Shown here: in pieces, positions 10,463-12,481 of the stretch | How the letters are laid out: each line of letters starts with the position of its first letter | Position numbering within the stretch: the first letter of the stretch is position 1 | Origin: Candidatus Saccharibacteria bacterium | GTDB taxonomy: Bacteria > Patescibacteriota > Saccharimonadia > JAGOAT01 | Length of the DNA stretch: 41,714 nt | Direction: 5' to 3' | Assembly: GCA_017983775.1 (NCBI GenBank) | Contig: JAGOAT010000005.1 | Span: 1-41,714, forward strand | Notes under the pieces: model-generated | Seen by the model: only the letters and a program-made list of their open reading frames with translations | What the model was told of the DNA's origin: nothing | Databases searched by the model: none | Position numbers and translations under genes: made by a program

Positions 10463-11242
10463 ATTATTAAAGTCAAAGCCAATAAAGATCTCGGTCAGCA
10501 TTTCCTAACTGATCAAACCTGCTTACAGCAAATAATCAATCTAGCCGACATCAGTCAATCAGATACAGTTTTAGAGATTGGTGCTGGTACTGGCCTGTTA
10601 ACACAGTTGATTTCAGAGCGTGCAAACAAGGTAATAGCTCTAGAGATTGATTCAAGAATGTTACCAATCCTAGGAAGGATCAAGGGTGTTGAGGTCGTTC
10701 ATCAGGATATAAGAGAGTTTGATTTATCCAGCTTATCGACTGGGTATCGGGTGGTTGCTAACTTGCCGTATTACATGACTAGTTTTGTGATTAGGAAATT
10801 GCTTGAATCAAGCAACCCATCTAGTGATATCTTGATATTAATTCAGAGGGAAGTTGCACAACGTATAGTAGCACCTATCGGGGATAAGTCAATTTTGGCT
10901 ATTATGGTTGAATATTGGGCAGATGCGGAGGTTTTATTAGACATTGCACCAGAGAAGTTTAGTCCACCACCAAAGGTTCATTCAAGTTTGATTAGGATTA
11001 GACCAATCAAAAAGAGGATTCAGGACTTGGACTATCAAGACTTGATGAAATTAGTTCGGGCTGGGTTTTTGCAAAAGCGCAAAAAGCTCAAGAACTCACT
11101 ATCTGTAGGTCTCGGACAATCAGCAGAAACAATAGAGCTATGGCTTGAGCGAGCAAAAATAGATGGGAATAAAAGAGCTCAACAATTAGATATTGAGGAT
11201 TGGGGTAGATTATTAAGGTACCAAAAGGAAAACACCCCCTAG
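10463..11242 (+). CDS. rsmA: 16S rRNA dimethyladenosine transferase RsmA/KsgA, apparent ATT start
   Basis: Dimethylates the two adjacent adenines near the 3' end of 16S rRNA in ribosome assembly. Landmarks: DLGQHFLTD (KsgA N-terminus), SAM-binding LEIGAGTGLL, NLPYY catalytic motif, and C-terminal QKRKKLKNSL. The first ATG/GTG/TTG-type codon is TTG 10607, but that would delete the N-terminal motif and the SAM loop. The frame is closed by the upstream gene's TAA at 10460-10462, and the next codons are ATT ATT AAA. A GGGAG lies about 9 nt before ATT 10463. I therefore place the start at ATT 10463 (259 residues, normal length). ATT starts are rare; infC is the classic example. Confidence 0.88.
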   Translation: MIKVKANKDLGQHFLTDQTCLQQIINLADISQSDTVLEIGAGTGLLTQLISERANKVIALEIDSRMLPILGRIKGVEVVHQDIREFDLSSLSTGYRVVANLPYYMTSFVIRKLLESSNPSSDILILIQREVAQRIVAPIGDKSILAIMVEYWADAEVLLDIAPEKFSPPPKVHSSLIRIRPIKKRIQDLDYQDLMKLVRAGFLQKRKKLKNSLSVGLGQSAETIELWLERAKIDGNKRAQQLDIEDWGRLLRYQKENTP

Positions 11243-11270
11243 AATCTCAATTGAGACCCTAGGGGGTGTT
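11231..11270 (+). terminator. Hairpin overlapping the rsmA stop
   Basis: A perfect 12-bp stem (11231-11242 with 11259-11270) whose left arm contains the rsmA TAG stop. The loop holds a second palindrome, TCTCAATTGAGA. There is no strict U-run right after it, but T-rich sequence follows at 11278-11285. It is also the first hairpin of the array described at 11291-11470. Confidence 0.6.
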
Positions 11271-11290
11271 ATAGTTGATATTTTTCATCA

Positions 11291-11470
11291 AGACTATCAG
11301 GTCTCGATGAGAGAGGTTGCACCCCTTGCCGGCTGTGCAGGTGAGGCAAGGGGTGCCGCGAGATGAGCTCAACCAAAGGTGTGGGTTGTACACCTTTGGG
11401 AGCACCTTTCTCGCTGCCGAGTCCTGGGAGGTAAGACTCGGCAGATGGGTGCTTGATCTCTGCTTTTATT
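11291..11470 (+). ncRNA. Putative structured RNA: GC-rich hairpin array
   Basis: Three strong perfect stems in AT-rich surroundings: 11319-11330 with 11345-11356 (12 bp), 11373-11382 with 11390-11399 (10 bp), and 11414-11423 with 11435-11444 (10 bp). The last is extended by AGCACC (11401-11406) with GGTGCT (11448-11453). GAGAT 11360-11364 can pair with ATCTC 11456-11460, closing a multibranch. A short T-rich tract (TTTTATT) follows at 11464. No long ORF is present. I found no match to RNase P, tmRNA, SRP or T-box consensus motifs. It could be an ncRNA, a leader for the M50 gene or stacked terminators; the strand is assumed. Confidence 0.5.
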
Positions 11471-11576
11471 AGTATCTTATTATCTTGAAGAAGATGCGAA
11501 GACGCTATAATGCCCCACTTGTCCTTATGGGGGGCAGCCCGAGAGCAAGCTGGATAAATATTTTCCTATATTAAGA

Positions 11577-11615
11577 TTGAAATGTCAACCCCAAAGTGTG
11601 CTATAATTTGACGTA
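11577..11615 (+). promoter_or_regulatory. Promoter placing the M50 gene leaderless
   Basis: TTGAAA (11577-11582), 19-bp spacer, then extended -10 TGC-TATAAT (11599-11607). The ATG at 11615 is only 7 nt beyond and there is no Shine-Dalgarno, so transcription and translation would start at about the same base. Confidence 0.65.
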
Positions 11616-12217
11616 TGCTACTAGCCTATCTAATCATGTTGCCAATTGCGATTACTGTTCATGAGTTTATGCATGCATTTACTGGTTATAAGCTCGGTGA
11701 TCCTACAGCTGAGAGGGAAGGAAGATTGACCTTAGACCCTCGTAAGCATATTGATCCGGTGATGACTATTCTTTTACCACTACTTTTGATACTGAGTGGC
11801 TCGCCAGTAGTTTTCGGGGCTGCTAGGCCAGTACCATTTAATCCTTATCTTGTCAGAGGAGGCAAGAAGGGAGCCGCCCTAGTTGCTTTGGCAGGCCCTT
11901 TGACCAATCTTGCACTTGCTCTAGTGGTCGGGTTATACTTGAGGGTTTTACCTTTTGATGTTCCGACGGTTAGGACTATCCTCGAAAATTTCGTGATGCT
12001 CAATCTGGGATTTTTTGCCTTCAATATGATTCCATTCCCACCCCTAGACGGCTCTAGAGTACTCTACGCATTTTTGCCAGATTCCTTGAGGGATTTAATG
12101 GATAGAATTGAAAAATTCGGGATGATGGGTATCTTTATATTCTTGTTTTTACTCTATCCCCTGGTGAGACCTGTATTAAGTCAAGTCATTATCAGTTTAT
12201 ACAACTTGATAGTCTGA
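11615..12217 (+). CDS. M50-family (site-2-type) membrane metalloprotease
   Basis: Intramembrane zinc protease, 200 residues with about five to six membrane helices. The zinc motif HEFMH (HExxH) lies near residue 16 in the first helix. The third-ligand motif NMIPFPPLDG (NxxPxPPLDG) lies near residue 135. The short form without a PDZ domain is common among bacterial M50 proteins; relatives cleave membrane-bound regulators or signal peptides. It has its own extended -10 promoter and seems leaderless. The promoter of the downstream ncRNA overlaps its last codons. Confidence 0.88.
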   Translation: MLLAYLIMLPIAITVHEFMHAFTGYKLGDPTAEREGRLTLDPRKHIDPVMTILLPLLLILSGSPVVFGAARPVPFNPYLVRGGKKGAALVALAGPLTNLALALVVGLYLRVLPFDVPTVRTILENFVMLNLGFFAFNMIPFPPLDGSRVLYAFLPDSLRDLMDRIEKFGMMGIFIFLFLLYPLVRPVLSQVIISLYNLIV

Positions 12218-12234
12218 GCTTAGCAGGGTAAGAT
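12206..12234 (+). promoter_or_regulatory. Promoter of the 12.24-kb ncRNA
   Basis: TTGATA (12206-12211), exactly 17 bp, then TAAGAT (12229-12234). The predicted transcript start, 12241, coincides with the first base of the closing helix of the RNA. The -35 box lies in the last codons of the M50 gene. Confidence 0.7.
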
Positions 12235-12240
12235 ACAGTT

Positions 12241-12391
12241 AGGCTCTATTTTCTTAGATAGGGTGGTATAAATCCTGAACAATATTGTTCTAGGGAAACC
12301 TATATTGGGCAGTTCTGAGGAATTGTTTCTGCGGATTCCCACCTGGTATGCACCAGGTTTTATATCAGCCTAAGGATCTAGAGCCTTTTTG
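12241..12391 (+). ncRNA. Structured ncRNA, about 150 nt, family unknown
   Basis: Complete transcription unit with promoter, nested helices and intrinsic terminator. Helices from outside in: 12241-12248 with 12379-12386 (8 bp); 12251-12257 with 12370-12376 (7 bp, one G-U); 12264-12272 with 12359-12367 (9 bp, one G-U). Inside are a palindromic hairpin at 12277-12290, TAGG-GAAA-CCTA (12291-12302, GNRA tetraloop), GGAAT/ATTCC (12319-12323 with 12335-12339) and ACCTGG/CCAGGT (12341-12346 with 12353-12358). The outermost 3' arm runs into TTTTT (12386-12390). No ORF is present. The closed irregular rod with an open centre is reminiscent of 6S RNA, but I recognise no family signature. tRNA-Pro begins 15 nt later. 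Confidence 0.72.
12379..12390 (+). terminator. Intrinsic terminator of the ncRNA
   Basis: The 3' arm TAGAGCCT pairs with the RNA's own 5' end (12241-12248) and is followed at once by a run of five T. The terminator is therefore the closing helix of the whole RNA, not a local hairpin. Confidence 0.6.
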
Positions 12392-12405
12392 TAGGGGGAT
12401 AGATT

Positions 12406-12481
12406 CAGGGTGTGGCGCAGTTGGTAGCGCGCTGGGCTGGGGGTCCAGAGGCCGCGGGTTCAAGTCCCGCCTCCCTGACCA
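12406..12481 (+). tRNA. tRNA-Pro (anticodon GGG)
   Basis: 76 nt including an encoded CCA (12479-12481). The acceptor stem CAGGGTG pairs with CTCCCTG, with one T-T mismatch at position 6-67. D-arm GCGC/GCGC with an AGTTGGTA loop. Anticodon stem CTGGG/TCCAG with loop CTGGGGG, giving anticodon GGG. T-arm GCGGG/CCCGC with TTCAAGT loop. A reading frame passes through this tRNA into the next gene, but that is not a real start for it. Confidence 0.93.

Follow-up and report, generated by a model that had tools for sequence, protein, structure and literature searches.

The window (the whole stretch of DNA analysed, 41,714 nt or 41.7 kb) belongs to a Saccharibacteria genome of 787 kb that is 97% complete. 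Between the end of an M50 (site-2-protease-like) metalloprotease ORF (12217) and a tRNA-Pro(GGG) gene (12406-12481) lies an intergenic slot that contains a structured RNA (Table 1). The stretch from 12236 to 12396 (+) was folded at -59.2 kcal/mol with a z-score of -4.85 (200 dinucleotide shuffles, none as stable), in agreement with the strong structure claimed by the original prediction. That prediction had described a real, unassigned RNA gene with a complete promoter and terminator, and had offered a 6S-like regulator or a lineage-specific RNA as possibilities. Two other elements were seen on the far side of the M50 gene. One, at 11275-11480 (+) between a gene ending at 11242 and the M50 gene, folds into three long hairpins at -97.2 kcal/mol (z -6.68), gave no credible match when compared with Rfam and is possibly another ncRNA; the other is a long near-perfect inverted repeat of 18 pairs (11231-11270) at the end of the preceding gene, which has a terminator-like match on the minus strand and is probably a shared terminator.

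Table 1. Features of the locus; position 1 is the first letter of the window.
Feature	Position	Strand	Evidence and details
M50 (site-2-protease-like) metalloprotease gene, directly upstream	11615-12217	+	HEFMH motif
Promoter: -35 TTGATA (12206-12211), 17-nt spacer, -10 TAAGAT (12229-12234)	12206-12234	+	start predicted at ~12241
6S RNA gene (ssrS-like; very probable), ~146-151 nt	12241-12386/12391	+	R1 match, sub-threshold RF00013 match, fold z
Closing stem P1, 5′ strand	12241-12254	+	12241-12248 pairs with 12379-12386; 12251-12254 pairs with 12373-12376
P2, 5′ strand (GGUAUAAAUCCUG), edge of the central bubble	12265-12277	+	S1-S3 pairing energy; covariation
5′ side of the central bubble	12277-12292	+	alternative hairpin GAACA-AUAU-UGUUC (12277-12290); 5′ strand z -1.6
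Apical arm	12293-12340	+	GGGAA.CC (12293-12300) with GG.UUCCC (12333-12340); inner hairpin
3′ central-bubble hairpin ACCUGGU-AUGC-ACCAGGU	12341-12358	+	arms 12341-12347/12352-12358
P2, 3′ strand	12354-12366	+	pairing and covariation
Closing stem P1, 3′ strand, then TTTTT (12386-12390)	12373-12390	+	sequence
tRNA-Pro(GGG), downstream neighbour	12406-12481	+	

6S RNA is a small bacterial RNA that switches off the main RNA polymerase; 6S RNAs are open-promoter mimics that bind the housekeeping holoenzyme and are freed by pRNA synthesis. Rfam was searched at gathering thresholds over the whole 41.7-kb window and returned tRNA only. In a permissive Rfam scan of 241 bases the 6S family (RF00013) was the top match, at full length (12240-12388, 23.2 bits, E 0.0047), with other families at E >= 3. 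The gathering score of RF00013 is 46.4 bits, a curation cut-off and not a biological definition, and the window sequence alone lies below it; the Rfam check proposed with the original prediction thus pointed to 6S as the best full-length match, at a score under gathering. This match alone is not decisive, because a genome-wide RF00013 search of the host genome (default filters, E 10) did not recover the locus. Among 147 same-class genomes, RF00013 matches were obtained in 15, five of them above gathering and the best at 55.7 bits; comparison with the positions from an M50 protein search placed these matches directly 3′ of the M50 gene, usually near tRNA-Pro(GGG). In a sample of the phylum, 17 of 192 genomes had RF00013 matches, 15 of them outside Saccharimonadia, and two exceeded gathering (60.2 and 55.4 bits, the former in another class). 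These same-slot orthologues, within the class and in other classes, carry the homology to 6S that had been raised as a possibility, and the class covariance model R1 described below links the window to them. An improbable alternative is a 6S descendant that is no longer canonical, for example a binder of core polymerase (no sigma) like Ms1 of Actinobacteria: Ms1 is a structural relative of 6S that was initially mistaken for it (PMC9130861), and the form of polymerase bound cannot be told from sequence alone, whereas Ms1 has ~300 nt with extra hairpins at its 5′ and 3′ ends (PMC9130861) and the RNA here has ~150 nt and no extra hairpins, the Ms1 family gave no match in Rfam at E 10, and the orthologues match RF00013.

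Evidence for a 6S RNA was extended by synteny and covariance, which were used because a DNA similarity search of 98 same-class genomes had yielded chance matches only. An alignment of 21 same-class relatives, with the window excluded (A1), was converted into the covariance model R1. R1 gave one match in the 41.7-kb window, at 12238-12388 (+), with 44.5 bits and E 3e-10, and a single copy in the host genome (E 5.5e-9). At E 0.01 or better it matched in 178 of 294 genomes of the class, one per genome among the matches listed, and at E 0.001 in 65 of 239 genomes across the phylum. The match lies within ~310 nt 3′ of the M50 gene in 60 of the 61 genomes listed with both positions; as R1 was made without any M50 information, this adjacency is an independent confirmation. 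All nine RF00013-identified 6S loci fetched from other Patescibacteria classes (L201-L209) were re-found by R1 at the same coordinates, and an M50 homologue adjoins the RNA at each of the nine. E. coli ssrS was not matched by R1, and the tie to canonical 6S therefore rests on the RF00013 matches in relatives. A sequence core, GGGA[GA]..CCUAAGAUU..GCGG..ACCCACCU (also written GGGA[G/A]..CCUaAGAUU..[hairpin]..GCGGgcACCCACCUg..cAGG), was found 3′ of M50 in nearly all loci read, the window included. At L042 and L044, two loci from one genus of the class, the 330 nt 3′ of M50 lacked the 6S core and the genomes gave no R1 match, in contrast to the close relatives L040/L041; loss or relocation of 6S in these genomes is possible.

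Covariation was analysed on A1 and on a second alignment (A3) of 79 distinct sequences aligned to R1. RNAalifold predicted 24 pairs from A1, 15 of them with compensatory changes; with P2 added, the 34 pairs were 88.7% paired and 20 of the 34 changed on both sides, with a covariation score of 0.409 compared with 0.252 +/- 0.014 in shuffles and at most 0.162 in slid versions. With A3, 31 of 34 pairs changed on both sides at a score of 0.612 (shuffled 0.181 +/- 0.007; slid at most 0.127). Every pair covaried in A3 for helix 1 (P1, 13/13), helix 2 (P2, 10/10) and helix 4 (4/4), and helices 3 and 4 were 99.6% and 96.0% paired. Because A3 is fitted to the R1 structure, its pair counts are somewhat inflated and the unfitted A1 is the safer and stricter figure; the effect size in A3 leaves little doubt that the structure covaries. 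The nested long-range helices of the original prediction are the same ones that covary in homologues, and its expectation of covariation was confirmed in both alignments. That an unrelated, lineage-specific structured RNA resembles 6S by chance is a very remote explanation: it could draw on the sub-threshold RF00013 score of the window itself, and it is set against covariation across 79 sequences, a slot identical to that of above-threshold 6S RNAs and the R1 match, which together with the occurrence in 178 of 294 class genomes refutes it in the main. The RNA is not confined to one lineage, against the lineage-specific option of the original prediction.

The comparative structure is of the 6S type and consists of a closing stem, P2, a central bubble with a 3′ hairpin competing with P2, and an apical stem; the helices of closing stem, bubble and apical arm covary in A1 and A3, and all of their pairs are possible in the window. 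P2 (12265-12277/12354-12366) contains a U-U mismatch at 12273/12358 and, as S1-S3 pairing, has an energy of -13.7 kcal/mol (z -3.4 when S1 is shuffled). The 3′-bubble hairpin, at which a CCCACCU motif is conserved, has -10.0 kcal/mol and z -4.9 (class median z -2.87). Both use the CAGG at 12354-12357, and the two structures therefore compete. The hairpin form of the 5′ side (GAACA-AUAU-UGUUC) is not clearly conserved. A GNRA hairpin (UAGG-GAAA-CCUA, 12291-12302) had been proposed from the fold of the single sequence and is absent from the comparative structure, in which this stretch is one strand of the apical stem (12293-12300 paired with 12333-12340); the comparative and minimum-energy folds differ by only 0.3 kcal/mol (-57.4 vs -57.7 kcal/mol). 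In L066, L073, L152-L160 and others, a 5′-bubble hairpin was observed whose loop carries the conserved UUUCCUGAAU; its arms also complement the 3′ strand, so that the element looks like a switch with several states.

The -35 element of the promoter falls within the last bases of the M50 gene. The TTGATA-17-TAAGAT element that had been predicted is present, although a plain promoter scan gave 6 matches compared with 4.3 +/- 1.8 in shuffles, about as frequent. The comparison of relatives is stronger evidence: 106 of 117 homologues carry a -10-like hexamer immediately upstream of the RNA, in most cases 3-6 nt from the model start, compared with 37 of 117 when the preceding 20 nt serve as background, and a dedicated promoter is therefore a conserved feature. 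The complete terminator of the original prediction is weakly supported and does not hold as a conserved feature: five T follow the closing helix, but no more than 25 of 117 homologues have a T-run of 4 or more behind the RNA, and the terminator scan of the window did not call the T-run at 12386-12390. The TTTTT after P1 is a possible weak terminator. In many relatives the same tRNA lies a few tens of nt from the 6S gene, and in several it follows on the same strand within a few to ~50 nt, so the 3′ end of the 6S RNA may arise by processing. In L030, L032, L054, L065, L066 and the window, tRNA-Pro(GGG) stands a few to ~20 nt behind the 6S gene on the same strand, which suggests that in some species RNase P cleaves a 6S-tRNA precursor. 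It is hardly credible that the structure is a 3′ UTR or leader (terminator of M50 or leader of tRNA-Pro) and not a free RNA, as the gaps on both sides would allow by being short, with the -35 within M50 and the tRNA only a few nt behind in some relatives, since the RNA has its own conserved -10 at a fixed distance, its structure is of the 6S type, and in many relatives the tRNA is on the opposite strand or at a distance of hundreds of nt.

The stretch 12241-12386/12391 (+) very probably encodes a compact, diverged 6S RNA (SsrS) that would act as an open-promoter mimic. For this explanation homology, structure, covariation, synteny, promoter conservation and the presence of an RpoD gene were established. 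The RNA, left unassigned by the original prediction, can now be assigned as a divergent 6S RNA of Saccharimonadia (Patescibacteria), and its standing as a real RNA gene is borne out by a position, sequence core and covarying structure kept across the class.

Polymerase binding, pRNA synthesis and a role in starvation are taken over from the 6S family. By this analogy, the window RNA would most likely pose as an open promoter, bind the holoenzyme that contains sigma70 and come off again through pRNA synthesis. The open promoter would be imitated by closing stem, central bubble and apical arm, and under nutrient shortage the RNA would keep the RpoD (sigma70) holoenzyme of RNA polymerase occupied. 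When nucleotides are back, the polymerase would copy the 5′ side of the bubble into a short pRNA, with a start predicted near 12275-12277 (nt 35-37 of the RNA); the pRNA would unwind P2, the freed 3′ strand would close into the hairpin at 12341-12358, and the RNA would be released. In 6S RNAs of the E. coli type the pRNA unwinds P2 and the freed 3′ strand forms the 3′-bubble hairpin, and in those of B. subtilis and Aquifex the strand also pairs with the distal 5′ bubble in a collapse helix (PMC8876501). A collapse helix was not evident in the window (S2-S3 pairing, z +1.1); together with a strong P2 and a strong 3′ hairpin on the same CAGG, this points to release by the 3′ hairpin, possibly aided by the 5′ hairpin GAACA/UGUUC. 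The fold with P2 formed is ~5 kcal/mol costlier than that with both hairpins (-52.2 vs -57.4 kcal/mol), and from these energies the free RNA may be predicted to sit in the hairpin form. A collapse helix in every member was considered and rejected, as S2-S3 pairing went beyond z -1.64 in only 15% of sequences. RpoD is encoded in the host genome beside a DnaG-like ORF and matches Sigma70_r2 in full; its C-terminal part appears classic, the domains beyond region 2 having been read from the sequence. A 301-aa ORF (L120, 1330-2235; own genome, C21) gave another Sigma70_r2 match, below the cutoff at 19.5 bits, and perhaps encodes a divergent sigma-like protein.

Five of 147 class genomes exceeded the RF00013 cut-off, whereas 178 of 294 were matched by the class model; most 6S genes of the class lie under the Rfam cut-off and would therefore be missed by annotation pipelines that use it. 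The retention of 6S by Saccharibacteria suggests that global parking and release of RNA polymerase persist in these bacteria. The conserved M50-6S order offers an easy way to locate 6S in other Patescibacteria, and the short RNAs demonstrate how small a part of the apical arm suffices for a 6S RNA. For Patescibacteria as a whole, we lean towards an ancient, single-copy and very short 6S lineage that was fixed beside M50 and is mostly invisible to Rfam. If so, polymerase hibernation would have been retained in tiny episymbionts, the apical arm would be reduced and the release switches would be clade-specific, with a collapse helix in some and a 5′-bubble hairpin in others. In the open literature, nothing was found that joins 6S RNA with Saccharibacteria or the Candidate Phyla Radiation, and for 6S RNA and Patescibacteria only signal recognition particle work was found; a prior mention is possible and priority is not claimed.

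Compared with known systems, the RNA shares with the E. coli and B. subtilis 6S-1 types (RF00013) a rod with closing stem, central bubble and apical arm, the conserved GGG-A-GC../..GC-A-CCCACCU core, a 3′-bubble hairpin that excludes P2 (as in PMC8876501) and a single-copy gene with its own promoter. It differs in length (~146-151 nt vs ~180-200 nt) and, from E. coli, in gene context, which is zapA-ssrS-fau there and M50/tRNA-Pro here. Ms1 of Actinobacteria has a 6S-like fold and is itself a polymerase ligand, but it is about twice as long, carries the extra end hairpins and binds core polymerase (PMC9130861). The 6S RNA of Aquifex aeolicus, with ~160 nt cited among the shortest known (PMC9130861), is likewise compact, and by length the window RNA is shorter still.
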